A stretch of DNA of 32,479 nucleotides from Saccoglossus kowalevskii (taxonomy: Eukaryota; Hemichordata; Enteropneusta; Harrimaniidae): contig NW_003135133.1 of NCBI RefSeq assembly GCF_000003605.2, positions 1 to 32,479 on the forward strand, read 5' to 3'. This document shows, in pieces, positions 1-32,479 of this stretch. How positions within the stretch are numbered: the stretch's first letter is position 1; each line of letters opens with the position of its first letter. Under the pieces are notes generated by a model. It was not told where the DNA came from. It did no database searches and saw nothing but the letters and a program-made list of their open reading frames with translations. The position numbers were made by a program, and so were the translations under genes.

Positions 1-442
1 TACGAGACTAAATGACATCAAGATGGGACTGTATAATATAAATACGAGACTACATGACATAAAGATGGGACCGCATGATATAAATACGAGACTACATGAC
101 ATTAAAACGCGACTGTATAATATAAATACGTGACTACATGACATAAAGATGGGACTGCATAATATAAATACGAGACTACATGACCTAAAGATGGGACTGT
201 ATAACATAAATACGAGACTACATGACATAAAGATGGGACTGCATAACATAAATACGAGACTACATGACATCAAGATGGGACTGCATAACATAAATACGAG
301 ACTACATGAAATTAAGATGGGACTGCATAACATAAATATGAGACTACATGACATTAAGATGGGACTGCATAACATAAATACGAGACTACATGACATAGAG
401 ATGGGACTGCATAACATAAATACGTGACTACATGACATTAAG

Positions 443-484
443 ATGGGACTGCATAACATAAATACGAGACTACATGACATAAAG
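443..484 (+). repeat. Reference monomer (consensus 42-bp unit)
   Basis: This copy matches the majority base at every position and is used here for numbering (a of atggg = 1). Common variants relative to it are: position 2 t to g; 7 c to t; 8 t to c; 10 c to t (gcat to gtat); 15 c to t; 22 a to t; 25 a to t (cgagac to cgtgac) or a to g; and 36-42, where acataaag becomes acattaag, acatcaag, acatagag, acctaaag, acatgaag, acacaaag, acactaag or aaattaag. Read as codons the unit is MGLHNINTRLHDIK on the plus strand. On the minus strand two further frames are stop-free, one containing MSCSLVF and MLCSPIF, the other LCHVVSY and LCYAVPS. Confidence 0.95.
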
Positions 485-486
485 AT
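445..486 (+). repeat. Two 21-bp half-units inside the monomer
   Basis: Half A (445-465, starting gggactgcat) and half B (466-486, starting gagactacat) align without gaps at 16 of 21 positions. They differ at half-unit positions 2 (g/a), 7 (g/a), 11 (a/g), 19 (t/g) and 21 (c/t), so four of the five differences are transitions. The shared frame is G-R-GACT-R-CAT-R-ACATAAA-K-A-Y. The array therefore looks like an older 21-bp tandem repeat whose paired, diverged units were later amplified together. The alignment is seen directly; the history is inferred. Confidence 0.9.
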
Positions 487-1741
487 GGGACTGCATAACA
501 TAAATACGAGACTACATGACATTAAGATGGGACTGCATAACATAAATTCGAGACTACATGACATAAAGATGGGACTGTATAATATAAATACGAGACTACA
601 TGACATAAAGATGGGACTGCATAACATAAATACGAGACTACATGACATTAAGATGGGACTGCATAACATAAATACGAGACTACATGACATAAAGATGGGA
701 CTGCATAACATAAATACGAGACTACATGACATAAAGATGGGACTGCATAACATAAATACGAGATTACATGACATAAAGATGGGACTGCATCACATAAATA
801 CGAGACTACATGACATAAAGATGGGACTGCATAACATAAATACGAGACTACATGACATTAAGATGGGACTGCATAACATAAATACGAGACTACATGACAT
901 AAATATGGGATTGTATAATATAAATACGAGACTACATGACATAAAGATGGGACTGCATAACATAAATACGAGACTACGTGACATAAAGAGGGGACTGCAT
1001 AATATAAATACGAGACTACATGACATAAAGATGGGACTGTATAACATAAATACGAGACTACATGACATAAAGATGGGACTGCATAACATAAATACGAGAC
1101 TACATGACATAAAGATGGGACTGCATAACATAAATACGAGACTACATGACATAGAGATGGGACTGCATAACATAAATACGAGACTACATGACATTAAGAT
1201 GGGACTGCATAACATAAATACGAGACTACATGACATAAAGATGGGACTGCATAACATAAATACGAGACTAAATGACACTAAGATGGGACTGCATAACATA
1301 AATACGAGACTACATGACATTAAGATGGGACTGCATAACATAAATACGAGACTACATGACATAAAGATGGGACTGCATAACCTAAATACGAGACTACATG
1401 ACATTAAGATGGGACTGCATAACATAAATTCGAGACTACATGACATAAAGATGGGACTGTATAATATAAATACGAGACTACATGACATAAAGATGGGACT
1501 GCATAACATAAATATGAGACTACATGACATTAAGATGGGACTGTATAACATAAATACGTGACTACATGACATAAAGATGGGACTGTATAATATAAATACG
1601 AGACTACATGACATAAAGATGGGATTGCATAATATAAATACGAGACTACATGACATAAAGATGGGACTGCATAACATAAATACGAGACTACGTGACATAA
1701 AGATGGGACTGCATAACATAAATACGAGACTACATGACATG

Positions 1742-2133
1742 AAGATGGGACTGCATAACATAAATACGAGATTACATGACATAAATATGGGACTCCATCA
1801 CATAAATACGAGACTACATGACATAAAGATGGGACTCCTTAACATAAATACGAGACTACATGACATTAAGATTGGACTGCATAACATAAATACGAGACTA
1901 CATGACATAAAGATGGGACTGCATAACATAAATACGAGACTACATGACATTAAGATGGGACTGCATAACATAAATTCGAGACTAAATGACATAAAGTTGG
2001 GACTGTATAATATAAATACGAGACTACATGACATAAAGAAGGGACTGCATAACATAAATACGAGACTGCATGACATTAAGATGGGACTGCATAACATAAA
2101 TACGAGACTACATGACATAAAGATGGGACTGTA
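1742..2133 (+). repeat. Rare-variant block, copy 1 (copy 2 at 24843-25234)
   Basis: This run of about nine units carries variants seen almost nowhere else in the window: gactccatcac, gactccttaac, agattggact, aagttggga and aagaaggga, in that order. The same order recurs 23,101 bp downstream (550 units plus 1 bp), and I noticed no difference over about 390 bp. At the right end copy 1 has a 1-bp deletion (gtatatataa against gtataatata in copy 2). Shared order of rare variants indicates common descent. Confidence 0.9.
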
Positions 2134-2159
2134 TATATAAATACGAGACTACATGACAT

Positions 2160-3210
2160 AAAGAGGGGACTGTATAACATGAATACGAGACTACATGACA
2201 TCAAGATGGGACTGCATAACTTAAATACGAGACTGCATGACATTAAGATGGGACTGCATAACATAAATACGAGACTACATGACATAAAGAGGGGACTGCA
2301 TAATATAAATACGAGACTACATGACATAAAGAGGGGACTGCATAACATAAATACGAGACTACATGACATAAAGATGGGATTGTATAACATAAATACGGGA
2401 CTACATGACATAAAGATGGGACTGCATAACATAAATACGAGACTACATGACATAAAGATGGGACTGCATAACATAAATACGAGACTACATGACATTAAGA
2501 TGGGATTGCATAACATTAATACGAGACTACATGACACAAAGATGGGACTGCATAACATAAATACGAGACTAAATGACACTAAGATGGGACTGCATAACAT
2601 AAATACGAGACTACATGACATAAAGATGGGACTGTATAATATAAATACGAGACTACATGACATAAAGATGGGACTGCATAACATAAATACGAGACTACAT
2701 GACATTAAGATGGGACTGCATAACATAAATACGAGACTACATGACATTAAGATGGGACCGCATAATATAAATACGAGACTACATGACATAAAGATTGGAC
2801 TGTATAACATAAATACGAGACTACATGACCTAAAGATGGGACTGTATAACATAAATACGAGACTACATGACATAAAGATGGGACTGCATAACATAAATAC
2901 GAGACTACATGACATCAAGATGGGACTGCATAACATAAATACGAGACTACATGAAATTAAGATGGGACTGCATAACATAAATACGAGACTACATGACGTA
3001 AAGATGGGACTGCATAACATAAATACGAGACTACATGACATAGAGATGGGACTGCATAACATAAATACGAGACTACATGACATTAAGATGGGACTGCATA
3101 ACATAAATACGAGACTACATGACATAAAGATGGGACTGCATAACATAAATACGAGACTACATGACATCAAGATGGGACTGCATAATATAAATACGAGACT
3201 ACATGACATC
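2160..3210 (+). repeat. 25-unit block, copy 1 (related to 16155-17205)
   Basis: About 25 consecutive units follow the same variant order as the block 13,995 bp downstream: acatgaatac, acttaaatac, two agggg units, a cgggac unit, a unit with attgcataac followed by attaatac, then acacaaag, aatgacacta, gaccgcat, acctaaag, aaattaag and acatagag tails. Several single-base differences separate the copies (for example aagattgg near 2790). A shorter relative lies at 6860-7240. The proline-type units at 2756 and 3260 are 12 units apart. Confidence 0.85.
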
Positions 3211-3321
3211 AAGATGGGACTGTATAATATAAATACGAGACTACATGACATAAAGATGGGACCGCATAATATAAATACGAGACTACATGACATTAAAACG
3301 GGACTGTATAATATAAATACG

Positions 3322-3843
3322 TGACTACATGACATAAAGATGGGACTGCATAATATAAATACGAGACTACATGACCTAAAGATGGGACTGTATAACATAA
3401 ATACGAGACTACATGACATAAAGATGGGACTGCATAACATAAATACGAGACTACATGACATCAAGATGGGACTGCATAACATAAATACGAGACTACATGA
3501 AATTAAGATGGGACTGCATAACATAAATACGAGACTACATGACATGAAGATGGGACTGCATAACATAAATACGAGACTACATGACATAGAGATGGGACTG
3601 CATAACATAAATACGAGACTACATGACATAAAGATGGGACTGCATAACATAAATACGAGACTACATGACATAAAGAGGGGACTGCATAATATAAATACGA
3701 GACTACATGACATAAAGAGGGGACTGCATAACATAACATAAATACGAGACTACATGACATAAAGATGGGACTGTATAACATAAATACGAGACTACATGAC
3801 ATAAAGATGGGACTGCATAACATAAATACGAGACTACATGACA
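3322..3843 (+). repeat. Block with 5-bp insertion, copy 1 (copy 2 at 10213-10734)
   Basis: The unit order is acctaaag, gtat unit, acatcaag, aaattaag, acatgaag, acatagag, plain, then two agggg units, and it matches 10213-10734 at an offset of 6,891 bp. Both copies carry the same 5-bp duplication, gcataacataacat at 3726 and 10617, which looks like replication slippage on ataac. A third copy at 11160-11580 has the same unit order without the insertion. The insertion therefore arose once in one lineage and was then copied. Confidence 0.9.
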
Positions 3844-6181
3844 TAAAGATGGGACTGCATAACATAAATACGAGACTACATGACATTAAGATGGGACTGC
3901 ATAACATAAATACGAGACTACATGACATAAAGATGGGACTGTATAATATAAATACGAGACTACATGACATAAAGATGGGACTGCATAACATAAATACGAG
4001 ACTACATGACATTAAGATGGGACTGCATAACGTAAATACGAGACTACATGACATTAAGATGGGACCGCATAATATAAATACGAGACTACATGACATAAAG
4101 ATGGGACTGTATAACATAAATACGAGACTACATGACATAAAGATGGGACTGTATAACATAAATACGAGACTACATGACATAAAGATGGGACTGCATAACA
4201 TAAATACGAGACTACATGACATAAAGATGGGACTGCATAACATAAATACGAGACTACATGACATTAAGATGGGACTGCATAACATAAATACGAGACTACA
4301 TGACATTAAGATGGGACTGCATAACATAAATACGAGACTACATGACATTAAGAGGGGACTGCATAACATAAATACGAGACTACATGACATAAAGATGGGA
4401 CTGCATAACATAAATACGAGACTACATGACATAGAGATGGGACTGCATAACATAAATACGTGACTACATGACATTAAGATGGGACTGCATAACATAAATA
4501 CGAGACTACATGACATAAAGATGGGACTGCATAACATAAATACGAGACTACATGATATTAATATGGGACTGCATAACATAAATACGAGACTACATGACAT
4601 AAAGATGGGACTGCATAACATAAATACGAGACTACATGACATTAAGATGGGACTGCATAACATAAATTCGAGACTACATGACATAAAGATGGGACTGTAT
4701 AATATAAATACGAGACTACATGACATAAAGATGGGACTGCATAACATAAATACGAGACTACATGACATTAAGATGGGACTGCATAACATAAATACGTGAC
4801 TACATGACATAAAGATGGGACTGTATAATATAAATACGAGACTACATGACATAAAGATGGGATTGCATAATATAAATACGAGACTACATGACATAAAGAA
4901 GGGACTGCATAACATAAATACGAGACTACATGACATAAAGATGGGACTGCATAACATAAATACGAGACTACATGACAAAGATGGGACTGCATAACATAAA
5001 TACGAGATTACATGACATAAAGATGGGACTGCATCACATAAATACGAGACTACATGACATAAAGATGGGACTGCATAACATAAATACGAGACTACATGAC
5101 ATTAAGATGGGACTGCATAACATAAATACGAGACTACATGACATAAATATGGGATTGTATAATATAAATACGAGACTACATGACATAAAGATGGGACTGC
5201 ATAACATAAATACGAGACTACATGACATAAGAGGGGACTGCATAATATAAATACGAGACTACATGACATAAAGATGGGACTGTATAACATAAATACGAGA
5301 CTACATGACATAAAGATGGGACTGCATAACATAAATACGAGACTACATGACATAAAGATGGGACTGCATAACATAAATACGAGACTACATGACATAGAGA
5401 TGGGACTGCATAACATAAATACGAGACTACATGACATTAAGATGGGACTGCATAACATAAATACGAGGCTACATGACATAAAGCTGGGACTGCATAACAT
5501 AAATACGAGACTACATGACATTAAGATGGGACCGCATAATATAAATACGAGACTACATGACATAAAGATGGGACTGTATAACATAAATACGAGACTACAT
5601 GACCTAAAGATGGGACTGCATAACATAAATACGAGACTACATGACATAAAGAGGGGACTGCATAATATAAATACGAGACTACATGACATAAAGATGGGAC
5701 TGCATAACATAAATACGAGACTACATGACATAAAGATGGGACTGCATAACATAAATACGAGACTACATGACATAAAGATGGGACTGCATAACATAAATAC
5801 GAGACTACATGATATTAATATGGGACTGCATAACATAAATACGAGACTACATGACATAAAGATGGGACTGTATAACATAAATACGAGACTACAGGACATA
5901 GAGATGGGACTGCATAACATAAATACGACACTACATGACATTAAGATGGGACTGCATAACATAAATACGAGACTACATGACATAAAGATGGGACTGCATA
6001 ACATAAATACGAGACTACATGACATTAAGATGGGACTGCATAACATAAATTCGAGACTACATGACATAAAGATGGGACTGTATAATAATATAAATACGAG
6101 ACTACATGACATAAAGATGGGACTGCATAACATAAATACGAGACTACATGACATTAAGATGGGACTGCATAACATAAATAC
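3844..6181 (+). repeat. Mosaic block with four small indels
   Basis: No gene is seen. Units are standard with local indels: -2 near 4977 (acatgacaaagatg), -1 near 5229 (acataagagg) and +3 near 6087 (gtataataatataa). A proline-type unit lies at 4063 and another at 5530. The stretch 5811-5990 carries catgatattaatatg, caggacatagag and a cgacac unit, and returns at 24544-24720 at an offset of 18,733 bp. The cassette of aattcg, gtat, two plain units and a cgtgac unit occurs at about 4657 and 6037. Confidence 0.8.
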
Positions 6182-7250
6182 GTGACTACATGACATAAAG
6201 ATGGGACTGTATAATATAAATACGAGACTACATGACATAAAGATGGGATTGCATAATATAAATACGAGACTACATGACATAAAGATGGGACAGCATAATA
6301 TAAATACGAGACTACATGACATAAATATGGGACTGCATAACATAAATACGAGACTACATGACATTAAGATGGGACTGCATAACATAAATACGTGACTACA
6401 TGACATAAAGATGGGACTGTATAATATAAATACGAGACTACATGACATAAAGATGGGATTGCATAATTTAAATACGAGACTACATGACATAAAGATGGGA
6501 CTGCATAACATAAATACGAGACTACATGACATAAAGATGGGACTGCATGACATAAATACGAGATTACATGACATAAAGATGGGACTGCATAACATAAATA
6601 CGAGATTACATGACATAAAGATGGGACTGCATCACATAAATACGAGACTACATGACATAAAGATGGGACTGCATAACATAAATACGAGACTACATGACAT
6701 AAAGATGGGACTGCATAACATAAATACGAGACTACATGACATAAAGATGGGACTGCATAACATAAATACGAGACTACATGACATTAAGATGGGACTGCAT
6801 AACATAAATACGAGACTACATGACATAAAGAGGGGACTGCATAATATAAATACGAGACTACATGACATAACGATGGGACTGTATAACATGAATACGAGAC
6901 TACATGACATAAAGATGGGACTGCATAACTTAAATACGAGACTGCATGACATTAAGATGGGACTGCATAACATAAATACGAGACTACATGACATAAAGAG
7001 GGGACTGCATAATATAAATACGAGACTACATGACATAAAGAGGGGACTGCATAACATAAATACGAGACTACATGACATAAAGATGGGACTGTATAACATA
7101 AATGCGGGACTACATGACATAAAGATGGGACTGCATAACATAAATACGAGACTACATGACATAAAGATGGGACTGCATAACATAAATACGAGACTACATG
7201 ACATTAAGATGGGACCGCATAATATAAATACGAGACTACATGACATAAAG
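6182..7250 (+). repeat. Large duplicated segment A, left part (copy at 15552-16470)
   Basis: The unit order matches the stretch about 9.3 kb downstream, including a gacagcat unit near 6289, gcatgacata at 6544, acataacgatg at 6866, acttaaatac and the rare aatgcgggac at 7101. The offset steps from 9,370 (6201/15571) to 9,328 (6541/15869) to 9,286 (6871/16157 and 7101/16387), each step being exactly one 42-bp unit. The copies have therefore gained or lost whole units since duplication. From about 7250 the order departs. Confidence 0.85.
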
Positions 7251-8129
7251 ATGGGACTGTATAACATGAATACGTGACTACATGACATTAAAACGGGACT
7301 GTATAATATAAATACGTGACTACATGACATAAAGATGGGACTGCATAATATAAATAGGAGACTACATGACATAAAAATGGGACTGTATAATATAAATACG
7401 AGACTACATGACATAAAGATGGGACTGCATAACATAAATACGAGACTACATGACATAAAGATGGGACTGCATAACATAAATACGAGACTACATGACATTA
7501 AGATGGGACTGCATAACATAAATACGAGACTACATGACATTAAGATGGGACTGCATAACATAAATACGAGACTACATGACATTAAAAGGGGACTGCATAA
7601 CATAAATACGAGACTACATGACATAAAGATGGGACTGCATAACATAAATACGAGACTACATGACATAGAGATGGGACTGCATAACATAAATACTTGACTA
7701 CATGGCATTAAGATGGGACTGCATAACATAAATACGAGACTACATGACATAAAGATGGGACTGCATAACATAAATACGAGACTACATGACATTAAGATGG
7801 GACTGCATAACATAAATACGAGACTACATGACATAAAGATGGGACTGCATAACATAAATACGAGACTACATGACATTAAGATGGGACTGCATAACATAAA
7901 TACGAGACTACATGACATAAAGATGGGACTGTATAATATAAATACGAGACTACATGACATAAATATGGGACTGTATAACATAAATACGAGACTACATGAC
8001 ATAAAGATGGGACTGCATAACATAAATACGAGACTACATGACACAAAGATGGGACTGCATAACATAAATACGAGACTAAATGACACTAAGATGGGACTGC
8101 ATAACATAAATACGAGACTACATGACATA
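7251..8129 (+). repeat. Mosaic block, partly shared with 22.2-22.9 kb
   Basis: The block holds the alternating cgtgac and aaaacgggac units at 7271-7320. From about 7500 it matches 22.2 kb onward, including cttgactacatggcat (7693 and 22395, offset 14,702). The offset later becomes 14,744 at the shared deletion 8176/22920, again a change of exactly one unit. No gene is seen. Confidence 0.8.
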
Positions 8130-9050
8130 AAGATGGGACTGTATAATATAAATACGAGACTACATGACATAAAGATGGACTGCATAACATAAATACGAGA
8201 CTACATGACATTAAGATGGGACTGCATAACATAAATACGAGACTACATGACATTAAGATGGGACCGCATAATATAAATACGAGACTACATGACATAAAGA
8301 TGGGACTGTATAACATAAATACGAGACTACATGACCTAAAGATGGGACTGTATAACATAAATACGAAACTACATGACATAAAGATGGGACTGCATAACAT
8401 AAATACGAGACTACATGACATCAAGATGGGACTGCATAACATAAATACGAGACTACATGAAATTAAGATGGGATGCATAACATAAATACGAGACTACATG
8501 ACATTAAGATGGGACTGCATAACATAAATACGAGACTACATGACATAAAGATGGAACTGCATAACATAAATACGAGACTACATGACATCAAGATGGGACT
8601 GCATAATATAAATACGAGACTACATGACATCAAGATGGGACTGTATAATATAAATACGAGACTACATGACATAAAGATGGGACCGCATAATATAAATACG
8701 AGACTACATGACATTAAAACGGGACTGTATAATATAAATACGTGATTACATGACATAAAGATGGGACTGCATAATATAAATACGAGACTACATGACCTAA
8801 AGATGGGACTGTATAACATAAATACGAGACTACATGACATAAAGATGGGACTGCATAACATAAATACGAGACTACATGACATCAAGATGGGACTGCATAA
8901 CATAAATACGAGGCTACATGAAATTAAGATGGGACTGCATAACATAAATACGAGACTACATGACATGAAGATGGGACTGCATAACATAAATACGAGACTA
9001 CATGACATAGAGATGGGACTGCATAACATAAATACGAGACTACATGACAT
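8130..9050 (+). repeat. Large duplicated segment A, right part (copy at 17668-18588)
   Basis: Two single-base deletions, agatggactgc at 8176 and agatgggatgc at 8471, recur at 17714 and 18009 with the same 9,538-bp offset. Between them lie a proline-type unit, two gtat units and a cgaaac unit in both places. A third copy of the first deletion and its following units is at 22920-23270. The aaattaag tails at about 8456 and 8917 are 11 units apart less the deleted base. Confidence 0.9.
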
Positions 9051-10212
9051 TAAGATGGGACTGCATAACATAAATACGAGGCTACATGACATAAAGCTGG
9101 GACTGCATAACATAAATACGAGACTACATGACATTAAGATGGGACTGCATAACATAAATTCGAGACTACATGACATAAAGATGGGACTGTATAATATAAA
9201 TACGAGACTACATGACATAAAGATGGGACTGCATAACATAAATACGAGACTACATGACATTAAGATGGGACTGCATAACATAAATACGTGACTACATGAC
9301 ATAAAGATGGGACTGTATAATATAAATACGAGACTACATGACATAAAGATGGGATTGCATAATATAAATACGAGACTACATGACATAAAGATGGGACTGC
9401 ATAACATAAATACGAGACTACATGACATAAAGATGTGACTGCATAACATAAATACGAGACTACATGACATAAAGATGGGACTGCATAACATAAATACGAG
9501 ATTACATGACATAAAGATGGGACTGCATCACATAAATACGAGACTACATGACATAAAGATGGGACTGCATAACATAAATACGAGACTACATGACATTAAG
9601 ATGGGACTGCATAACATAAATACGAGACTACATGACATAAATATTGGACTGTATAATATAAATACGAGACTACATGACATAAAGATGGGACTGCATAACA
9701 TAAATGCGAGACTACATGACATTAAGATGGGACTGCATAACATAAATACGAGACTACATGACATAAATATGGGATTGTATAATATAAATACGAGACTACA
9801 TGACATAAAGATGGGACTGCATAACATAAATACGAGAATACATGACATAAAGATGGGACTGCATAACATAAATACGAGACTACATGACATAAAGATGGGA
9901 CTGCATAACATAAATACGAGATTACATGACATAGAGATGGGACTGCATAACATAAATACGAGACTACATGACATTAAGATGGGACTGCATAACATAAATA
10001 CGAGACTACATGACATAAAGATGGGACTGCATAACATAAATACGAGACTAAATGACACTAAGATGGGACTGCATAACATAAATACGAGACTACATGACAT
10101 AAAGATGGGACTGTATAATATAAATACGAGACTACATGACATAAAGATGGGACTGCATAACATAAATACGAGACTACATGACATTAAGATGGGACTGCAT
10201 AACATAAATACG
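9051..10212 (+). repeat. Mosaic block, constant phase
   Basis: No gene and no indel are seen. The cassette aattcg, gtat, plain, plain, cgtgac, gtat, attgcat runs from about 9147 to 9370 and is one of about nine copies in the window. It is followed by the agattac and gcatcacata units that often come after it. The stretch 9640-9800 holds two acataaatatt or acataaatatg units, three units apart. Confidence 0.8.
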
Positions 10213-10230
10213 AGACTACATGACATAAAG

Positions 10231-12083
10231 ATGGGACTGCATAATATAAATACGAGACTACATGACCTAAAGATGGGACTGTATAACATAAATACGAGAC
10301 TACATGACATAAAGATGGGACTGCATAACATAAATACGAGACTACATGACATCAAGATGGGACTGCATAACATAAATACGAGACTACATGAAATTAAGAT
10401 GGGACTGCATAACATAAATACGAGACTACATGACATGAAGATGGGACTGCATAACATAAATACGAGACTACATGACATAGAGATGGGACTGCATAACATA
10501 AATACGAGACTACATGACATAAAGATGGGACTGCATAACATAAATACGAGACTACATGACATAAAGAGGGGACTGCATAATATAAATACGAGACTACATG
10601 ACATAAAGAGGGGACTGCATAACATAACATAAATACGAGACTACATGACATAAAGATGGGACTGTATAACATAAATACGAGACTACATGACATAAAGATG
10701 GGACTGCATAACATAAATACGAGACTACATGACATAGAGATGGGACTGCATAACATAAATACGAGACTACATGACATTAAGATGGGACTGCATAACATAA
10801 ATACGAGACTACATGACATAAAGATGGGACTGTATAATATAAATACGAGACTACATGACATAAAGATGGGTTTGCATAATATAAATACGAGACTACATGA
10901 CATAAAGATGGGACTGCATAACATAAATACGAGACTACACGACATAAAGATGGGACTGTATAATATAAATACGAGACTACATGTCATAAAGATGGGATTG
11001 CATAATATAATACGAGACTACATGACATAAGGATGGGACTGCATAACATAAAATACGAGACTACATGACATAAAGATGGGACTGCATAATATAAGTACGA
11101 GACTACATGACATTAAAACGGGACTGTATAATATAAATACGTGACTACATGACATAAAGATGGGACTGCATAATATAAATACGAGACTACATGACCTAAA
11201 GATGGGACTGTATAACATAAATACGAGACTACATGACATAAAGATGGGACTGCATAACATAAATACGAGACTACATGACATCAAGATGGGACTGCATAAC
11301 ATAAATACGAGACTACATGAAATTAAGATGGGACTGCATAACATAAATACGAGACTACATGACATGAAGATGGGACTGCATAACATAAATACGAGACTAC
11401 ATGACATAGAGATGGGACTGCATAACATAAATACGAGACTACATGACATAAAGATGGGACTGCATAACATAAATACGAGACTACATGACATAAAGAGGGG
11501 ACTGCATAATATAAATACGAGACTACATGACATAAAGAGGGGACTGCATAACATAAATACGAGACTACATGACATAAAGATGGGACTGTATAACATAAAT
11601 ACGAGACTACATGACATAAAGATGGGACTGCATAACATAAATACGAGACTACATGACATAGAGATGGGACTGCATAACATAAATACGAGACTACATGACA
11701 TTAAGATGGGACTGCATAACATAAATACGAGACTACATGACATAAAGATGGGACTGTATAATATAAATACGAGACTACATGACATAAAGATGGGTTTGCA
11801 TAATATAAATACGAGACTACATGACATAAAGATGGGACTGCATAACATAAATACGAGACTACATGACATAAAGATGGGATTGCATAATATAAATAGGAGA
11901 CTACATGACATAAAGATGGGACTGCATAACATAAATACGAGACTACATGACATAAAGATGGGACTGCATAACATAAATACGAGACTACATGACATAAAGA
12001 TGGGACTGCATAACATAAATACGAGACTACATGACATAAAGATGGGACTGCATAACATAAATACGAGACTACATGACATAAAG
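10231..12083 (+). repeat. 22-unit HOR, two tandem copies
   Basis: The unit series starting acctaaag at 10231 starts again at 11160, a spacing of 929 bp: 22 units (924 bp) plus the 5-bp insertion present only in copy 1. The gggtttgcat marker follows at 10871 and 11795, exactly 924 bp apart. Small indels near 11009 (-1) and 11050 (+1) restore phase. The two copies differ by the insertion, these indels and some tail variants. Confidence 0.85.
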
Positions 12084-13080
12084 ATGGGACTGCATAACAT
12101 AAATACGAGACTACATGACATAAAGAGGGGACTGCATAATATAAATACGAGACTACATGACATAAAGAGGGGATTGCATAACATAAATACGAGACTACAT
12201 GACATAAAGATGGGACTGCATAACATAAATACGAGACTACATGACATAAAGAGGGGACTGCATAATATAAATACGAGACTACATGACATAAAGATGGGAC
12301 TGCATAACATAAATACGAGACTACATGACATAAAGATGGGACTGCATAACATAAATACGAGACTACATGACATAAAGATGGGACTGCATAACATAAATAC
12401 GAGACTACATGATATTAATATGGGACTGTATAATATAAATACGAGACTACATGTCATAAAGATGGGATTGCATAATATAAATACGAGACTACAGGACATA
12501 GAGATGGGATTGCATAATATAAATACGAGACTACATGACATAAAGATGGGATTGCATAACATAAATACGAGACTACATGACATAAAGATGGGACTGCATA
12601 ACATAAATACGAGACTACATGACATTAAGATGGGACTGAATAACATAAATACGAGATTACATGACATAAAGATGGGACTGCATAACATAAATACGAGCTA
12701 CATGACATAAAGATGGGATTGCATAATATAAATAGGAGACTACATGACATTAAGATGGGACTGCATAAACATAAATACGAGACTACATGACATAAAGATG
12801 GGACTGTATAATATAAATACGAGACTACATGACATAAAGATGGGTTTGCATAATATAAATACGAGACTACATGACATAAAGATGGGACTGCATAACATAA
12901 ATACGAGACTACATGACATAAAGATGGGATTGCATAATATAAATACGAGACTACATGACATAAAGATGGGACTGCATAACATAAATACGAGACTACATGA
13001 CATAAAGATGGGACTGCATAACATAAATACGGGACTACATGACATAAAGATGGGACTGCATAACATAAATACGAGACTAC
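12084..13080 (+). repeat. Link block with copy at 30.46 kb
   Basis: Units from about 12450 to 12745 run acatgtcata, attgcat, gactgaataac, agattac and aataggagac. The stretch from 30463 follows nearly the same order, though a caggacatagag unit (12493) is seen only here. The gactgaat markers at 12635 and 30648 are 18,013 bp apart (429 units less 5 bp). A 1-bp deletion near 12708 (tacgagctac) is followed 59 bp later by a compensating insertion (gcataaacat). The gggtttgcat marker at 12845 lies 25 units after that at 11795. No gene is seen. Confidence 0.8.
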
Positions 13081-14659
13081 ATGACATGAAGATGGGACTG
13101 CATAACATAAATACGAGACTACATGACATAGAGATGGGACTGCATAACATAAATACGAGACTACATGACATAAAGATGGGACTGCATAACATAAATACGA
13201 GACTACATGACATCAAGATGGGACTGCATAATATAAATACGAGACTACATGACATAAAGAGGGGACTGCATAACATAAATACGAGACTACATGACATAAA
13301 GATGGGACTGTATAACATAAATACGAGACTACATGACATAAAGATGGGACTGCATAACATAAATACGAGACTACATGACATAGAGATGGGACTGCATAAC
13401 ATAAATACGAGACTACATGACATAAAGAGGGGACTGCATAATATAAATACGAGACTACATGACATAAAGAGGGGACTGCATAACATAAATACGAGACTAC
13501 ATGACATAAAGATGGGACTGTATAACATAAATACGAGACTACATGACATAAAGATGGGACTGCATAACATAAATACGAGACTACATGACATAGAGATGGG
13601 ACTGCATAACATAAATACGAGACTACATGACATTAAGATGGGACTGCATAACATAAATACGAGACTACATGACATAAAGATGGGACTGTATAATATAAAT
13701 ACGAGACTACATGACATAAAGATGGGTTTGCATAATATAAATACGAGACTACATGACATAAAGATGGGACTGCATAACATAAATACGAGACTACATGACA
13801 TAAAGATGGGACTGCATAATATAAATACGAGACTACATGACATAAAGATGGGACTGCATAACATAAATACGAGACTACATGACATAAAGATGGGACTGCA
13901 TAACATAAATACGAGACTACATGACATCAAAGATGGGACTGCATAACATAAATACGAGACTACATGACATTAAGATGGGACTGCATAACATAAATACGAG
14001 ACTACATGACATGAAGATGGGACTGCATAACATAAATACGAGACTACATGACATAGAGATGGGACTGCATAACATAAATACGAGACTACATGACATAAAG
14101 ATGGGACTGCATAACATAAATACGAGACTACATGACATAAAGAGGGGACTGCATAATATAAATACGAGACTACATGACATAAAGAGGGGACTGCATAACA
14201 TAAATACGAGACTACATGACATAAAGATGGGACTGTATAACATAAATACGAGACTACATGACATAAAGATGGGACTGCATAACATAAATACGAGACTACA
14301 TGACATAGAGATGGGACTGCATAACATAAATACGAGACTACATGACATTAAGATGGGACTGCATAACATAAATACGAGACTACATGACATAAAGATGGGA
14401 CTGTATAATATAAATACGAGACTACATGACATAAAGATGGGTTTGCATAATATAAATACGAGACTACATGACATAAAGATGGGACTGCATAACATAAATA
14501 CGAGACTACATGACATAAAGATGGGACTGTATAATATAAATACGAGACTACATGTCATAAAGATGGGATTGCATAATATAAATACGAGACTACATGACAT
14601 AAAGATGGGATTGCATAATATAAATACGAGACTACATGACATAAAGATGGGATTGTATA
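13081..14659 (+). repeat. 22-unit HOR with an extra 5-unit duplication
   Basis: The series beginning acatgaag then acatagag at 13081 restarts at 14006, 22 units plus a 1-bp insertion (catcaaagatg near 13928). Within the first copy the five-unit series agggg, gtat, plain, acatagag appears twice, starting at 13261 and 13471, exactly 210 bp apart. The gggtttgcat markers are at 13727 and 14442. The local 5-unit duplication explains why the spacing of internal markers varies between 17 and 22 units. Confidence 0.8.
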
Positions 14660-15522
14660 ACATAAATACGAGGCTACATGACATAAAGATGGGATTGCAT
14701 AATATAAATAGGAGACTACATGACATAAAGATGGGACTGCATAACATAAATACGAGACTACATGACATAAAGATGGGACTGCATAACATAAATACGGGAC
14801 TACATGACATAAAGATGGGACTGCATAACATAAATACGAGACTACATGACATAAAGATGGGACTGCATAACATAAATACGAGACTACATGACATAAAGAT
14901 GGGACTGCATAACATAAATACGAGACTACATGACATAAAGAGGGGACTGCATAATATAAATACGAGACTACATGACATAAAGAGGGGACTGCATGACATA
15001 AATACGAGACTACATGACATAAAGATGGGACTGCATAACATAAATACGAGACTACATGACATAAAGAGGGGACTGCATAACATAAATACGGGACTGCATG
15101 ACATAAAGATGGGACTGCATAACATAAATACGAGACTACATGACATAAAGATGGGACTGCATAACATAAATACGAGACTACATGACATAAAGATGGGACT
15201 GCATAACATAAATACGAGACTACATGACATAAAGAGGGGACTGCATAATATAAATACGAGACTACATGACATAAAGAGGGGACTGCATAACATAAATACG
15301 AGACTACATGACATAAAGATGGGACTGTATAACATAAATACGAGACTACATGACATAAAGATGGGACTGCATAACATAAATACGAGACTACATGACATAG
15401 AGATGGGACTGCATAACATAAATACGAGACTACATGACATTAAGATGGGACTGCATAACATAAATACGAGACTACATGACATAAAGATGGGACTGTATAA
15501 TATAAATACGAGACTACATGAC
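14660..15522 (+). repeat. Block duplicated almost perfectly at 30908-31770
   Basis: About 20 units, marked by gaggctac, aataggagac, cgggac, agggg, gcatgacata and cgggactgcat, recur in the same order and phase at an offset of 16,248 bp. By eye I noticed one substitution in about 860 bp: tacgag near 14962 is tacaag near 31211, a CpG to CpA change. The phase difference between copies (-6) comes from indels elsewhere. Confidence 0.88.
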
Positions 15523-15551
15523 ATTAAGATGGGACTGCATAACATAAATAC

Positions 15552-17205
15552 GTGACTACATGACATAAAGATGGGACTGTATAATATAAATACGAGACTA
15601 CATGACATAAAGATGGGATTGCATAATATAAATACGAGACTACATGACATAAAGATGGGACAGCATAATATAAATACGAGACTACATGACATAAATATGG
15701 GACTGCATAACATAAATACGAGACTACATGACATTAAGATGGGACTGCATAACATAAATACGTGACTACATGACATAAAGATGGGACTGTATAATATAAA
15801 TACGAGACTACATGACATAAAGATGGGATTGCATAACATAAATACGAGACTACATGACATAAAGATGGGACTGCATGACATAAATACGAGATTACATGAC
15901 ATAAAGATGGGACTGCATAACATAAATACGAGATTACATGACATAAAGATGGGACTGCATCACATAAATACGAGACTACATGACATAAAGATGGGACTGC
16001 ATAACATAAATACGAGACTACATGACATAAAGATGGGACTGTATAATATAAATACGAGACTACATGACATTAAGATGGGACTGCATAACATAAATACGAG
16101 ACTACATGACATAAAGAGGGGACTGCATAATATAAATACGAGACTACATGACATAACGATGGGACTGTATAACATGAATACGAGACTACATGACATAAAG
16201 ATGGGACTGCATAACTTAAATACGAGACTGCATGACATTAAGATGGGACTGCATAACATAAATACGAGACTACATGACATAAAGAGGGGACTGCATAATA
16301 TAAATACGAGACTACATGACATAAAGAGGGGACTGCATAACATAAATACGAGACTACATGACATAAAGATGGGACTGTATAACATAAATGCGGGACTACA
16401 TGACATAAAGATGGGACTGCATAACATAAATACGAGACTACATGACATAAAGATGGGACTGTATAACATAAATACGAGACTACATGACATTAAGATGGGA
16501 TTGCATAACATTAATACGAGACTACATGACACAAAGATGGGACTGCATAACATAAATACGAGACTAAATGACACTAAGATGGGACTGCATAACATAAATA
16601 CGAGACTACATGACATAAAGATGGGAATGTATAATATAAATACGAGACTACATGACATAAAGATGGGACTGCATAACATAAATACGAGACTACATGACAT
16701 TAAGATGGGACTGCATAACATAAATACGAGACTACATGACATTAAGATGGGACCGCATAATATAAATACGAGACTACATGACATAAAGATGGGACTGTAT
16801 AACATAAATACGAGACTACATGATCTAAAGATGGGACTGTATAACATAAATACGAGACTACATGACATAAAGATGGGACTGCATAACATAAATACGAGAC
16901 TACATGACATCAAGATGGGACTGCATAACATAAATACGAGACTACATGAAATTAAGATGGGACTGCATAACATAAATACGAGACTACATGACATAAAGAT
17001 GGGACTGCATAACATAAATACGAGACTACATGACATAGAGATGGGACTGCATAACATAAATACGAGACTACATGACATTAAGATGGGACTGCATAACATA
17101 AATACGATACTACATGACATAAAGATGGGACTGCATAACATAAATACGAGACTACATGACATCAAGATGGGACTGCATAATATAAATACGAGACTACATG
17201 ACATT
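15552..17205 (+). repeat. Chimeric block: segment A copy joined to the 25-unit block
   Basis: Its left part (15552 to about 16470) matches 6182-7250. Its middle and right (16155-17205) match 2160-3210 at an offset of 13,995 bp, and the two matches overlap over about 300 bp. The rare pair of attgcataac with attaatac, then acacaaag and aatgacacta, sits at 2505 and 16500. The block therefore links the 2-kb and 7-kb regions as members of one larger family. Confidence 0.82.
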
Positions 17206-17670
17206 AAGATGGGACCGCATAATATAAATACGAGACTACATGACATAAAGATGGGACTGTATAACATAAATACGAGACTACATGACCTAAAGATGGGACT
17301 GTATAACATAAATACGAGACTACATGACATAAAGATGGGACTGCATAACATAAATACGAGACTACATGACATCAAGATGGGACTGCATAACATAAATACG
17401 AGACTACATGAAATTAAGATGGGACTGCATAACATAAATACGAGACTACATGACATAAAGATGGGACTGCATAACATAAATACGAGACTACATGACATAG
17501 AGATGGGACTGCATAACATAAATACGAGACTACATGACATTAAGATGGGACTGCATAACATAAATACGAGACTACATGACATAAAGATGGGACTGCATAA
17601 CATAAATACGAGACTACATGACATCAAGATGGGACTGCATAATATAAATACGAGACTACATGACATCAAG
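16747..17670 (+). repeat. 11-unit HOR, two tandem copies
   Basis: Each 462-bp copy begins with a proline-type unit (gaccgcat at 16751 and 17213), followed by tails acataaag, acctaaag or atctaaag, acataaag, acatcaag, aaattaag, plain and acatagag, then plain units ending in acatcaag. Spacing is exactly 11 units. One unit near 17107 reads cgatac instead of cgagac. A third, partial start at 17800 follows after the 1-bp deletion at 17714. Confidence 0.88.
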
Positions 17671-18588
17671 ATGGGACTGTATAATATAAATACGAGACTA
17701 CATGACATAAAGATGGACTGCATAACATAAATACGAGACTACATGACATTAAGATGGGACTGCATAACATAAATACGAGACTACATGACATTAAGATGGG
17801 ACCGCATAATATAAATACGAGACTACATGACATAAAGATGGGACTGTATAACATAAATACGAGACTACATGACATAAAGATGGGACTGTATAACATAAAT
17901 ACGAAACTACATGACATAAAGATGGGACTGCATAACATAAATACGAGACTACATGACATCAAGATGGGACTGCATAACATAAATACGAGACTACATGAAA
18001 TTAAGATGGGATGCATAACATAAATACGAGACTACATGACATTAAGATGGGACTGCATAACATAAATACGAGACTACATGACATAAAGATGGGACTGCAT
18101 AACATAAATACGAGACTACATGACATCAAGATGGGACTGCATAATATAAATACGAGACTACATGACATCAAGATGGGACTGTATAATATAAATACGAGAC
18201 TACATGACATAAAGATGGGACCGCATAATATAAATACGAGACTACATGACATTAAATCGGGACTGTATAATATAAATACGTGACTACATGACATAAAGAT
18301 GGGACTGCATAATATAAATACGAGACTACATGACCTAAATATGGGACTGTATAACATAAATACGAGACTACATGACATAAAGATGGGACTGCATAACATA
18401 AATACGAGACTACATGACATCAAGATGGGACTGCATAACATAAATACGAGACTACATGAAATTAAGATGGGACTGCATAACATAAATACGAGACTACATG
18501 ACATAAAGATGGGACTGCATAACATAAATACGAGACTACATGACATAGAGATGGGACTGCATAACATAAATACGAGACTACATGACAT
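17668..18588 (+). repeat. Large duplicated segment A, right-part copy
   Basis: This is the partner of 8130-9050 and shares both single-base deletions at 17714 and 18009. It differs from its partner at a few bases: attaaatcggg near 18251 where the partner has attaaaacggg, acctaaatatg near 18335 where the partner has acctaaagatg, and ggaactgc near 8563 only in the partner. After 18588 the two copies part. Confidence 0.88.
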
Positions 18589-20859
18589 AAAGATGGGACT
18601 GCATAACATAAATACGAGACTACATGACATTAAGATGGGACTGCATAACATAAATACGAGACTACATGACATAAAGATGGGACTGTATAATATAAATACG
18701 AGACTACATGACATAAAGATGGGACTGCATAACATAAATACGAGACTACATGACATTAAGATGGGACTGCATAACATAAATACGAGACTACATGACATTA
18801 AGATGGGACTGCATAACATAAATACGAGACTACATGACATAAAGATGGGACTGCATAACATAAATACGAGACTACATGACATAAAGATGGGACTGCATAA
18901 CATAAATACGAGACTACATGACATAAAGATGGGACTGCATAACATAAATACGAGACTACATGACATTAAGATGGGACTGCATAACATAAATACGAGACTA
19001 CATGACATAAAGATGGGACTGCATAACATAAATACGAGACTACATGACATTAAGATGGGACTGCATAACATAAATTCGAGACTACATGACATAAAGATGG
19101 GACTGTATAATATAAATACGAGACTACATGACATAAAGATGGGACTGCATAACATAAATACGAGACTACATGACATTAAGATGGGACTGCATAACATAAA
19201 TACGAGACTACATGAAATTAAGATGGGACTGCATAACATAAATACGAGACTACATGACATAAAGATGGGACTGCATAACATAAATACGAGACTACATGAC
19301 ATAGAGATGGGACTGCATAACATAAATACGTGACTACATGGCATTAAGATGGGACTGCATAACATAAATACGAGACTACATGACATAAAGATGGGACTGC
19401 ATAACATAAATACGAGACTACATGACATTAAGATGGGACTGCATAACATAAATACGAGACTACATGACATAAAGATGGGACTGCATAACATAAATACGAG
19501 ACTACATGACATTAAGATGGGACTGCATAACATAAATTCGAGACTACATGACATAAAGATGGGACTGTATAATATAAATACGAGACTACATGACATAAAG
19601 ATGGGACTGCATAACATAAATACGAGACTACATGACATTAAGATGGGACTGCATAACATAAATACGTGGCTACATGACATAAAGATGGGACTGTATAATA
19701 TAAATACGAGACTACATGACATAAAGATGGGATTGCATAATATAAATACGAGACTACATGACATAAAGATGGGACTGCATAACATAAATACGAGACTACA
19801 TGACATAAAGATGGGACTGCATAACATAAATACGAGACTACATGACATAAAGATGGGACTGCATAACATAAATACGAGATTACATGACATAAAGATGGGA
19901 CTGCATCACATAAATACGAGACTACATGACATAAAGATGGGACTGCATAACATAAATACGAGACTACATGACATTAAAACGGGACTGTATAATATAAATA
20001 CGTGACTACATGACATAAAGATGGGACTGCATAACATAAATACGAGACTACATGACATAAATATGGGATTGTATAATATAAATACGAGACTACATGACAT
20101 AAAGATGGGACTGCATAACATAAATACGAGACTACATGACATAAAGAGGGGACTGCATAATATAAATACGAGACTACATGACATAAAGATGGGACTGCAT
20201 AACATAAATACGAGACTACATGACATAAAGATGGGACTGCATAACATAAATACGAGACTACAAGACATAGAGACGGGGCTGCCTAACATAAATACGAGAC
20301 TACATGACATTAAGATGGGACTGCATAACATAAATACGAGACTACATGACATAAAGATGGGACTGCATAACATAAATACGAGACTAAATGACACTAAGAT
20401 CGGACTGCATAACATAAATACGAGACTACATGACATGAAGATGGGACTGTATAATATAAATACGAGACTACTTGACATAAAGATGGGACTGCATAACATA
20501 AATACGAGACTACATGACATTAAGATGGGACTGCATAACATAAATACGAGACTACATGACATAAAGATGGGACTGCATAACATAAATACGAGACTACATG
20601 ACACAAAGATGGGACTGCATAACATAAATACGAGACTACATGACACAAAGATGGGACTGCATAACATAAATACGAGACTAAATGACATAAGATGGGACTG
20701 CATAACATAAATACGAGACTACATGACATAAAGATGGGACTGTATAATATAAATACGAGACTACATGACATAAAGATGGGACTGCATAACATAAATACGA
20801 GACTACATGACATTAAGATGGGACTGCATAACATAAATACGAGACTACATGACATTAAG
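18589..20859 (+). repeat. Mosaic block, mostly plain units
   Basis: No gene is seen. Plain consensus-like units dominate from 18.6 to 19.1 kb. Aattcg units at about 19074 and 19537 are 11 units apart. The cassette at 19525-19750 carries cgtggc near 19668, where the usual cgtgac TGA reads TGG. The unit at 20263-20304 is unusually altered (acaagac, agacgggg, gcctaac). A 1-bp deletion lies near 20689 (acataagatg). Confidence 0.78.
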
Positions 20860-21784
20860 ATGGGACTGCATAATATAAATACGAGACTACATGACATAAA
20901 GATGGGACTGTATAACATAAATACGAGACTACATGACATAAAGATGGGGACTGTATAACATAAATACGAGACTACATGACATAAAGATGGGACTGCATAA
21001 CATAAATACGAGACTACATGACATCAAGATGGGACTGCATAACATAAATACGAGACTACATGAAATTAAGATGGGACTGCATAACATAAATACGAGACTA
21101 CATGACATAAAGATGGGACTGCATAACATAAATACGAGACTACATGACATAGAGATGGGACTGCATAACATAAATACGAGACTACATGACATTAAGATGG
21201 GACTGCATAACATAAATACGAGACTACATGACATAAAGATGGGACTGCATAACATAAATACGAGACTACATGACATCAAGATGGGACTGCATAATATAAA
21301 TACGAGACTACATGACATTAAGATGGGACCGCATAATATAAATACGAGACTACATGACTTAAAGATGGGACTGTATAACATAAATACGAGACTACATGAC
21401 CTAAAGATGGGACTGTATAACATAAATACGAGGCTACATGACATAAAGATGGGACTGCATAACATAAATACGAGACTACATGACATCAAGATGGGACTGC
21501 ATAACATAAATACGAGACTACATGAAATTAAGATGGGACTGCATAACATAAATACGAGACTACATGACATAAAGATGGGACTGCATAACATAAATACGAG
21601 ACTACATGACATAGAGATGGGACTGCATAACATAAATACGAGACTACATGACATTAAGATGGGACTGCATAACATAAATACGAGACTACATGACATAAAG
21701 ATGGGACTGCATAACATAAATACGAGACTACATGACATCAAGATGGGACTGCATAACATAAATTCGAGACTACATGACGTAAGG
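20860..21784 (+). repeat. 11-unit HOR, second tandem pair
   Basis: Copies run 20860-21322 (463 bp, with one inserted g near 20947) and 21323-21784 (462 bp). Both carry the order of the 16.75-17.67 kb pair: gtat units, acatcaag, aaattaag (21061 and 21523), plain, acatagag and acatcaag. Copy 1 lacks the proline-type change at its first unit (gactgcat rather than gaccgcat). The same HOR thus exists twice in the window, about 4 kb apart. Confidence 0.85.
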
Positions 21785-21930
21785 ATGGGACTGTATTATA
21801 TAAGTACAAGACTACTTGACATAAACATGGGACTGCATAACATAAATACAAGACTACATGACATTAAAATGGGACTGCATAACATAAATACTTGACTACA
21901 TGACATAAAGATGGGACTGTATAATATAAA
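21770..21930 (+). repeat. Diverged patch of about four units
   Basis: Substitutions are far denser here than in neighbouring units: acgtaaggatg, gtattatata, aagtacaag, ctacttgac, aaacatggg, aatacaag, attaaaatg, tacttgac and tactaaac. The 42-bp phase is kept throughout and both sides return at once to near-consensus units. It may be an older, poorly homogenised stretch. Confidence 0.8.
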
Positions 21931-24535
21931 TACTAAACTACATGACATAAAGATGGGATTGCATAATATAAATACGAGACTACATGACATTAAGATGGGA
22001 CTGCATAACATAAATACGAGACTACATGACATAAAGATGGGACTGCATAATATAAATACGAGACTACATGACATAAAGATGGGACTGTATAACATAAATA
22101 CGAGACTACATGACATAAAGATGGGACTGCATAACATAAATACGAGACTACATGACATAAAGATGGGACTGCATAACATAAATACGAGACTACATGACAT
22201 TAAGATGGGACTGCATAACATAAATACGAGACTACATGACATTAAGATGGGACTGCATAACATAAATACGAGACTACATGACATTAAAAGGGGACTGCAT
22301 AACATAAATACGAGACTACATGACATAAAGATGGGACTGCATAACATAAATACGAGACTACATGACATAGAGATGGGACTGCATAACATAAATACTTGAC
22401 TACATGGCATTAAGATGGGACTGCATAACATAAATACGAGACTACATGACATAAAGATGGGACTGCATAACATAAATACGAGACTACATGACATAAAGAT
22501 GGGACTGCATAACATAAATACGAGACTACATGACATTAAGATGGGACTGCATAACATAAATACGAGACTACATGACATAAAGATGGGACTGCATAACATA
22601 AATACGAGACTACATGACATTAAGATGGGACTGCATAACATAAATTCGAGACTACATGACATAAAGATGGGACTGTATAATATAAATACGAGACTACATG
22701 ACATAAATATGGGACTGTATAACATAAATACGAGACTACTTGACATAAAGATGGGACTGCATAACATAAATACGAGACTACATGACACAAAGATGGGACT
22801 GCATAACATAAATACGAGACTAAATGACACTAAGATGGGACTGCATAACATAAATACGAGACTACATGACATAAAGATGGGACTGTATAATATAAATACG
22901 AGACTACATGACATAAAGATGGACTGCATAACATAAATACGAGACTACATGACATTAAGATGGGACTGCATAACATAAATACGAGACTACATGACATTAA
23001 GATGGGACCGCATAATATAAATACGAGACTACATGACATAAAGATGGGACTGTATAACATAAATACGAGACTACATGACATAAAGATGGGACTGTATAAC
23101 ATAAATACGAAACTACATGACATAAAGATGGGACTGCATAACATAAATACGAGACTACATGACATCAGATGGGACTGCATACATAATACGAGACTACATG
23201 ACATCAAGATGGGACTGCATAACATAAATACGAGACTACATGAAATTAAGATGGGACTGCATAACATAAATACGAGACTACATGACATAAAGATGGGACT
23301 GTATAACATAAATACGAGACTACATGACATAAAGATGGGACTGCATAACATAAATACGAGACTACATGACATTAAGATGGGACTGCATAACATAAATACG
23401 AGACTACATGACATAAAGATGGGACTGCATAACATAAATACGAGACTACATGACATTAAGATGGGACTGCATAACATAAATTCGAGACTACATGACATAA
23501 AGATGGGACTGTATAACATAAATACGAGACTACATGACCTAAAGATGGGACTGTATAACATAAATACGAAACTACATGACATAAAGATGGGACTGCATAA
23601 CATAAATACGAGACTACATGACATCAAGATGGGACTGCATAACATAAATACGAGACTACATGACATTAAGATGGGACTGTATAATATAAATACGAGACTA
23701 CATGACATGAAGATGGGACTGCATAACATAAATACGAGACTACATGACATTAAGATGGGACTGCATAACATAAATACGAGACTACATGACATTAAGATGG
23801 GACTGCATAACATAAATACGAGACTACATGACATTAAGAGGGGACTGCATAACATAAATACGAGACTACATGACATAAAGATGGGACTGCATAACATAAA
23901 TACGAGACTACATGACATAAAGATGGGACTGCATAACATAAATACGTGACTACATGACATTAAGATGGGACTGCATAACATAAATACGAGACTACATGAC
24001 ATAAAGATGGGACTGCATAACATAAATACGAGACTACATGATATTAAGATGGGACTGCATAACATAAATACGAGACTACATGACATAAAGATGGGACTGC
24101 ATAACATAAATACGTGACTACATGACATTAAGATGGGACTGCATAACATAAATACGAGACTACATGACATAAAGATGGGACTGTATAACATAAATACGAG
24201 ACTACATGACATAAAGATGGGACTGCATAACATAAATACGAGACTACATGAAATTAAGATGGGACTGCATAACATAAATACGAGACTACATGACATAAAG
24301 ATGGGACTGTATAACATAAATACGAGACTACATGACATAGAGATGGGACTGCATAACATAAATACGAGATTACATGACATTAAGATGGGACTGCATAACA
24401 TAAATACGAGACTACATGACATAAAGATGGGACTGCATAACATAAATACGAGACTACATGACATTAAGATGGGACTGCATAACATAAATTCGAGACTACA
24501 TGACATAAAGATGGGACTGCATAACATAAATACGA
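21931..24535 (+). repeat. Mosaic block containing copies of 7.5-8.5 kb
   Basis: From about 22.2 to 23.3 kb the unit order follows 7.5-8.5 kb, including cttgactacatggcat and the agatggactgc deletion (22920). Three further single-base deletions fall within about 22 bp at 23165-23187 (acatcagatg, gcatacataatac), which the other two copies lack. Mixed plain, aaattaag and gtat units follow, with cgtgac units near 23945 and 24113. No gene is seen. Confidence 0.8.
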
Positions 24536-25517
24536 GACTACATGATATTAATATGGGACTACATAACATAAATACGAGACTACATGACATAAAGATGGGA
24601 CTGTATAACATAAATACGAGACTACAGGACATAGAGATGGGACTGCATAACATAATACGACACTACATGACATTAAGATGGGACTGCATAACATAAATAC
24701 GAGACTACATGACATAAAGATGGGACTGCATAACATAAATACGAGACTACATGACATAAAGATGGGACTGCATAACATAAATACGAGATTACATGACATA
24801 AAGATGGGACTGCATCACATAAATACGAGACTACATGACATAAAGATGGGACTGCATAACATAAATACGAGATTACATGACATAAATATGGGACTCCATC
24901 ACATAAATACGAGACTACATGACATAAAGATGGGACTCCTTAACATAAATACGAGACTACATGACATTAAGATTGGACTGCATAACATAAATACGAGACT
25001 ACATGACATAAAGATGGGACTGCATAACATAAATACGAGACTACATGACATTAAGATGGGACTGCATAACATAAATTCGAGACTAAATGACATAAAGTTG
25101 GGACTGTATAATATAAATACGAGACTACATGACATAAAGAAGGGACTGCATAACATAAATACGAGACTGCATGACATTAAGATGGGACTGCATAACATAA
25201 ATACGAGACTACATGACATAAAGATGGGACTGTATAATATAAATACGAGACTACATGACATAAAGAGGGGACTGCATAATATAAATACGAGACTACATGA
25301 CATAAAGATGGGACTGCATAACATAAATACGAGACTACATGACATTAAGATGGGACTGCATAACATAAATTCGAGACTACATGACATAAAGATGGGACTG
25401 TATAATATAAATACGAGACTACATGACATAAAGATGGGACTGCATAACATAAATACGAGACTACATGACATTAAGATGGGACTGCATAACATAAATACTT
25501 GACTACATGACATAAAG
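24536..25517 (+). repeat. Junction block: copies of 5.8 kb and 1.7 kb side by side
   Basis: The left part (24544-24720) matches 5811-5990, including caggacatagag and the cgacac unit, here with a 1-bp deletion near 24653. The middle (24843-25234) matches 1742-2133 with its rare variants. Material that lies 4 kb apart in the left of the window is thus adjacent here. The rest is ordinary units with a cttgac unit at 25499. Confidence 0.83.
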
Positions 25518-28698: not shown

Positions 28699-28794
28699 CA
28701 TGACATTAAGATGGGACTGCATAACATAAATACGAGACTACATGACATTAAAACGGGACTGTATAATATAAATACGTGACTACATGACATAAAG

Positions 28795-29130
28795 ATGGGA
28801 CTGCATAATATAAATACGAGACTACATGACCTAAAGATGGGACTGTATAACATAAATACGAGACTACATGACATAAAGATGGGACTGCATAACATAAATA
28901 CGAGACTACATGACATCAAGATGGGACTGCATAACATAAATACGAGACTACATGACATCAAGATGGGACTGCATAATATAAATACGAGACTACATGACAT
29001 CAAGATGGGACTGTATAATATAAATACGAGACTACATGACATAAAGATGGGACCGCATAATATAAATACGAGACTACATGACATTAAAACGGGACTGTAT
29101 AATATAAATACGTGACTACATGACATAAAG
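28795..29130 (+). repeat. 8-unit HOR copy next to its longer relative
   Basis: The series starting acctaaag at 28795 restarts at 29131 after 336 bp (8 units). The aaaacggg units that end each copy are at 28751 and 29087, also 336 bp apart. The first three units of the two series agree. The series then parts, the later one continuing with aaattaag and acatagag tails as at 149 and 3340. Confidence 0.78.
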
Positions 29131-30470: not shown

Positions 30471-30689
30471 AAAGATGGGATTGCATAATATAAATACGAG
30501 ACTACATGACATAAAGATGGGATTGCATAATATAAATACGAGACTACATGACATAAAGATGGGATTGCATAACATAAATACGAGACTACATGACATAAAG
30601 ATGGGACTGCATAACATAAATACGAGACTACATGACATTAAGATGGGACTGAATAACATAAATACGAGATTACATGACATAAAGATGGG

Positions 30690-32470: not shown

Positions 32471-32479
32471 CGTGATGAA
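32471..32479 (+). other. Last nine bases depart from the monomer
   Basis: The window ends cgtgatgaa where the cgtgac-type unit would give cgtgactac. Either a 5-bp deletion (ctaca) is followed by an aaattaag-type tail, which also begins tgaa, or this is the start of sequence outside the array. The window stops too soon to decide. Confidence 0.5.

Follow-up and report, generated by a model that had tools for sequence, protein, structure and literature searches.

A 42-bp satellite array composed of two alternating, diverged 21-bp halves

Introduction

The growth of satellite DNA is, in the standard account, attributed to unequal exchange and conversion (PMC8122249). Of the systems described there, the closest in design to the locus considered here is primate alpha satellite SF1-2, in which two alternating units, up to ~30% apart, were amplified as a pair; other alpha satellite arrays stay monomeric (PMC8122249). 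The Responder satellite of Drosophila is also a dimer of two related monomers, which are 84% identical (PMC8122249). A basic unit of 21 bp is shared by mouse TRPC-21A (PMC8122249) and oyster CgiSat43 (PMC8268682), and in chicken similar unit-length classes with higher-order forms are represented by CNM (41 bp) and the W-chromosome satellite sate-21 (21 bp), whose unit is TTTTCnnnnnGAAAAnnnnnn (PMC9974502).

The array analysed here occupies a stretch of 32,479 nucleotides, the whole of which is referred to as the window. In common with alpha satellite SF1-2, it consists of an alternating diverged pair that has been amplified, and monomeric arrays are found elsewhere in the same genome. Alpha satellite is centromeric, its units are 171 bp long and one member of each pair carries a CENP-B box, whereas the array has 21-bp units and no CENP-B-box-like site; a scan of the window with the CENP-B-box motif, allowing up to 2 mismatches, gave no match, and the feature that marks alpha satellite and the CENP-B-box satellites was thus not found in the window. 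The Responder monomers are 120 bp long as against 21 bp here, and the likeness to Responder, as to TRPC-21A and CgiSat43, is drawn from their published descriptions. TRPC-21A is described as GC-richer than other mouse satellites, and the array in the window has a GC content of ~35%. The comparison with CNM concerns unit length and gives no evidence of kinship. By inspection, the TTTTC...GAAAA dyad reported for sate-21 (PMC9974502) is absent from the array consensus, which has neither of the two blocks. No previous description of the 42-bp/21-bp repeat was recognised in the literature searched, where only analogues were found; six words of 20-22 bases from the repeat had no match in the papers searched, and a degenerate piece of 25 bases gave 0 matches in IMG/VR.

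The array and its two halves

The window is the entire contig C2702 of a 572-Mb genome in 4,830 contigs, and it is filled by a head-to-tail tandem array of the kind that defines satellite DNA (773.1 copies over 32,472 bases; Table 1). Written in the rotation B+A, the most frequent monomer accounts for 205 of the 773, and the unit at 445-486 is the other rotation of the same monomer. Given this frequency and the copy number, the dimeric structure at 445-486 is typical of the whole array and not special to that position. Stop codons number between 280 and 1,172 per frame in all six frames, and on this content the array is non-coding satellite DNA. A search of the consensus for separated, exact inverted repeats (5-8 bp) found none. 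Assembly errors may be present inside a contig this repetitive.

Table 1. Coordinates of features in the window
Feature	Position	Strand	Remarks
773-monomer array of the 42-bp satellite, fills the contig	1..32472	+	TRF, 773.1 copies, 94% matches
Half A (T19 type), GGGACTGCATAACATAAATAC	445..465	+	
Half B (G19 type), GAGACTACATGACATAAAGAT	466..486	+	
20-monomer block	14670..15509	+	copied at 30918-31757 with 1 mismatch
Other copy of the 20-monomer block	30918..31757	+	copy of 14670-15509
Longest duplicated block, 27 monomers	25373..26507	+	copied at 26424-27557 with 7 mismatches
Hybrid B unit, A states at positions 2 and 7	15090..15110	+	one of two in the window
Hybrid B unit, second copy of the hybrid at 15090..15110	31338..31358	+	

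The earlier note had read the 42-bp monomer as a dimer of two diverged 21-bp halves that match at 16 of 21 positions without a gap and differ mostly by transitions, and this description was reproduced at 445-486. The five differences fall at unit positions 2 (G/A), 7 (G/A), 11 (A/G), 19 (T/G) and 21 (C/T), given as A/B, and comprise four transitions and one transversion. The count of transitions carries little weight by itself, because variants within the window divide into 581 transitions and 489 transversions by cell and into 30 and 47, respectively, by distinct variant. The resemblance extends over the whole window, where identity is 0.703 at lag 21 as against 0.177 at lag 20, 0.175 at lag 22 and 0.223 at lag 10, with 0.300 expected from base composition; the secondary peak at lag 21 for which the note had proposed to look is therefore present. 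The note had also held that chance identity at this level is unlikely, and that the absence of a lag-21 excess over shuffles of the same composition would tell against a dimer. Neither the mononucleotide shuffles (200,000) nor the dinucleotide shuffles (40,000) of the TRF consensus 42-mer ever gave 16 of 21, the maximum being 15 in each set, and the observed 32 of 42 was reached at the best circular lag (5 to 21) in 0 of 40,000. The outcome that the note had named as refuting was therefore not obtained. A still deeper layer inside the 21-mer is not significant: identity at lag 5 is 10 of 21, nominally reached by 2% of 20,000 shuffles, but 17% of shuffles do as well when the best of lags 2-10 is taken.

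Divided into 21-mers, the window yields 1,546 half-units, 773 of type A and 773 of type B, in perfect alternation, and a two-profile classifier found same-type neighbours in 0 of 1,540 adjacent pairs. The array is in this respect a dimeric satellite of two strictly alternating types, and the match of the halves, together with the 21-bp array consensuses described below, indicates that both types come from one shorter repeat. Among full-length units, the departure from the consensus of their own type is 0.65 of 21 bases for A (754 units) and 0.72 for B (764 units). Divergence is thus ~3% within a type as against 24% between types, which places the A/B split much further back than the present homogenisation. 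Exchange between the halves is nearly absent in the window, where at least two A states occur in only 2 of 773 B units, and none of the 773 A units has as many as two B states. Both hybrid B units belong to a duplicated block, one in each copy (Table 1).

Higher-order structure

Beyond the 21-bp repeat and the paired 42-bp unit, the earlier note had proposed a third layer of higher-order repeats (HORs). The first two layers stand, and the third does not as a regular period in the window, where monomer identity is flat at all lags tested (mean 0.942, standard deviation 0.002) and no multi-monomer block recurs at a fixed period. Instead, blocks of 9-27 monomers have been duplicated irregularly, as seen among the 30 best duplications listed. 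In a comparison that ignores inserted bases, block duplication scores reach 20; when the order of the monomers was permuted five times, the maxima were 4-7.

Dimeric arrays elsewhere in the genome

A pattern search for A-A junctions gave 12 matches, of which 4 derive from the two hybrid B units of the window, 5 lie in contig C3338 and one each lies in C4304, C1764 and C3059; B-B junctions were found nowhere in the genome at up to 3 mismatches. These four contigs were obtained from the junction search, and C1526 from a separate search. C1526 (49.8 kb) is satellite throughout, has no same-type neighbours among 2,373 pairs and carries a further layer of 84 bp (A-B1-A-B2), position 10 of its B units alternating between A and T in 793 of 973 steps, with 9 steps containing a gap or G set aside. 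In C3338, 29 of 1,332 pairs break the alternation, in four recurring junctions, three of which lie in a diverged stretch and may be misclassed units rather than slips. This diverged 21-mer stretch recurs, and two of its junctions occur 11 times each, which suggests repeated duplication of one block.

Slips of the 21-bp register are seen in two further arrays. In C3059, of which 20,000 of 20,403 bases were covered, they affect 16 of 153 adjacent pairs of the array at 2743-5968, fall into five junction clusters and form recurring 63-bp a-a-b trimers; in C1764 they affect 18 of 96 adjacent pairs, in four junction clusters, of an array at 20695-22885 that adjoins a run of N. As the commonest junction is present in 12 copies in each, these slips represent few events that were later amplified. 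The 3.2-kb array of C3059 has non-satellite DNA on both sides, with a frame matching the CARD domain (Pfam) at 8040-8423, ~2 kb downstream, and other tandem repeats with units of 37, 30 and 49 bp occur in a far part of C1764 (57683-60335).

Across all five arrays, T/G at position 19 is the sole difference that separates the unit types, and it was itself used to define them. The remaining differences between halves vary among arrays, position 7 being reversed in C3059.

Arrays with a 21-bp period

The dimer reading was also to be judged by a search of the genome for arrays of pure 21-bp period, and such an array was found at C316:12637-13270, along with short diverged clusters in C3528 and C4304. 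The search pattern consisted of two adjacent monomer-type 21-mers, and C316 was among the first 100 of 291 matches listed. The C316 array comprises 29 units, with neither 42-bp alternation nor a lag-2 peak; TRF reports a period of 21, 27.0 copies and 91% matches at 12635-13196. Its units are 0.912 identical at lag 1 and 0.865-0.887 identical at lags 2-8, and 2.75% of 2,000 order shuffles show an equal or larger excess of lag 1 over lag 2. T19 is present in 4 of the 29 units, and two B-like units stand at one edge.

C3528 contains three diverged clusters of 9, 19 and 14 units (TRF, 69-72% matches), in which position 19 is G in 38 of 42 units and T in 1. By 2,000 order shuffles each, alternation is borderline in the first (6.8%), undetected in the second (30%) and present in the third (0), which lies at 325209-325498 and has G19 in both of its types. 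Positions 11 and 21 are paired as A with T in 18 units, G with C in 10, A with C in 7 and G with T in 4, a pairing opposite to that of the window dimer. A 157-bp tandem repeat of 4.8 copies (323301-324038) is located between the diverged clusters. In C4304, a 646-kb scaffold, 3.6 near-identical copies (94%) and a decayed cluster ~1.2 kb away on the opposite strand make up two short clusters, at 338345-338513 and 339686-339850; a frame matching a methyltransferase domain (Pfam) lies ~6 kb from them. A short tract in C888 has mixed, partly alternating units.

The consensuses of C316, C3528 and C4304 match half A at 18, 19 and 20 of 21 positions and half B at 17, 18 and 17, respectively. Each of the three agrees with A at positions 2, 7 and 11 and with B at position 19, and at position 21 they read T, T and C in the same order. 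Window half B differs from them at 2, 7 and 11 and half A at 19, which is the pattern that would be expected of two lineages descending from one 21-mer. Taken together with the window, these arrays support the reading of the 42-bp monomer as a diverged 21-bp dimer.

The same assembly includes contig C4830, with one COX1 match containing 7 in-frame TGA codons, on the strand opposite to neighbouring frames that we take to be ND1-like and COX2-like. The ND1-like frame uses AGA but no AGG, and AAA stands at lysine sites that we presume to be conserved. Codon usage and COX1 point to an animal mitochondrion as the probable source of this contig, with a tentative leaning towards lophotrochozoans.

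Origin of the paired unit

The reading that we favour, and consider highly probable, is one of ordinary satellite evolution in an animal genome, in which a 21-bp repeat gave rise to two types, their alternating pair became the unit and longer blocks followed. A 21-bp tandem repeat (about GRGACTGCATAACATAAAGAY) would have split into two types through point mutation. Amplification would next have acted on the alternating A-B pair as its unit, and the spread of blocks of 42 bp and more would have produced the 32-kb array. With the halves at ~71-76% identity, exchange in the 21-bp register would become rare, and exchange in the 42-bp register would keep whole monomers ~94% alike. We infer both this order of events and unequal exchange or conversion as the mechanism. 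The step that invokes a homology threshold is conjectural, because the frequency of slips does not track the identity between halves: identity at a lag of one unit is 0.69 in C1526, which has no slips, and 0.73 and 0.67 in C3059 and C1764, which have them. A toy exchange model lent no support: at a threshold of 0.6, two of the eight runs gave a 2-unit period and the other six gave different ones, and in the printed runs at thresholds of 0.8 and 0.9 the arrays decayed to random identity.

Two alternatives accept the common descent of the halves and differ as to the order or number of events. The 21-bp arrays could be secondary, recombination between A and B having collapsed the dimer to a hybrid 21-mer that was then re-amplified. 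The 21-bp monomer consensus, GGGACTGCATAACATAAAGAT, is exactly A(1-18) joined to B(19-21) and could be produced by one such recombination; hybrid B units are present in the window, C316 has both T19 and B-like units at one edge, and the alternation of one of the three C3528 clusters (325209-325498) itself speaks against the order favoured above. Some 21-bp arrays may indeed be recombination products rather than survivors. However, C3528 is more diverged than the dimeric arrays (69-72% as against 94%) and yet nearly fixed for G19, and its positions 11 and 21 are paired in the opposite way, features that would favour, although not decisively, an independent and older state. On balance we regard a secondary origin as unlikely; were it correct, the halves would still be of common descent, but the 21-bp arrays seen today would not represent their ancestor. 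Somewhat more plausible, though still doubtful, is that 42-bp pairing arose more than once from a 21-bp pool, so that the dimers of different arrays would not form one lineage. This is consistent with position 19 alone separating the types in all five arrays, with the reversal at position 7 in C3059 and with the alternation of a C3528 cluster whose types both have G19. Parsimony over all 21 sites instead favours one dimer, at 12 steps, over an independent C3059 (13), an independent C1764 (14), both independent (15) or all five independent (23); once the class-defining position 19 is removed, one dimer requires 11 steps and these alternatives 11, 12, 12 and 18, such that an independent C3059 costs the same.

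The remaining alternatives dispense with descent from a 21-bp satellite unit. A length of 21 bp corresponds to about two turns of the DNA helix, and the halves might be alike because selection maintains one binding site or DNA shape at intervals of two turns; AA/TT power is high at 21 and 10.5 bp, harmonics that any 21-bp repeat would give. Identity is, however, distributed along the full length of the unit, and the tandem 21-mers found at other loci, which resemble both halves closely, make selection unnecessary, leaving this explanation very improbable. More improbable still is that the period, equivalent to 7 codons, is the relic of a coding repeat. Relatives such as C3059 contain long open frames (500 and 501 codons), but on both strands at once, as a stop-free 21-mer yields by itself, and the stop content of the window led us to reject a coding origin. 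Chance resemblance of the halves, finally, was rejected by the shuffles described above and retains a negligible probability.

Implications

The favoured reading of ordinary satellite evolution accords with the standard account. As in dimeric alpha satellite, the anatomy of the array fits a progression from a short repeat through variants and a paired unit to larger blocks, and the array is an ordinary yet well preserved case of satellite growth rather than a new kind of element. A more speculative extension, to which we assign a low probability, is that one genome has kept the successive stages, namely 21-bp units (C316), mixed units with 63-bp trimers (C3059 and C1764), 42-bp units (the window) and 84-bp units (C1526), and that the halves may differ in role, for example with one of them binding a chromatin protein. 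If true, half-specific roles would account for the absence of 21-bp slips from the two longest arrays in which the pairing is strict. For annotation, the 21-bp (7-codon) period is a source of long spurious open frames in relatives of the array. The presence of several stages of growth in one genome would make models of unequal exchange testable on arrays of differing divergence and size.
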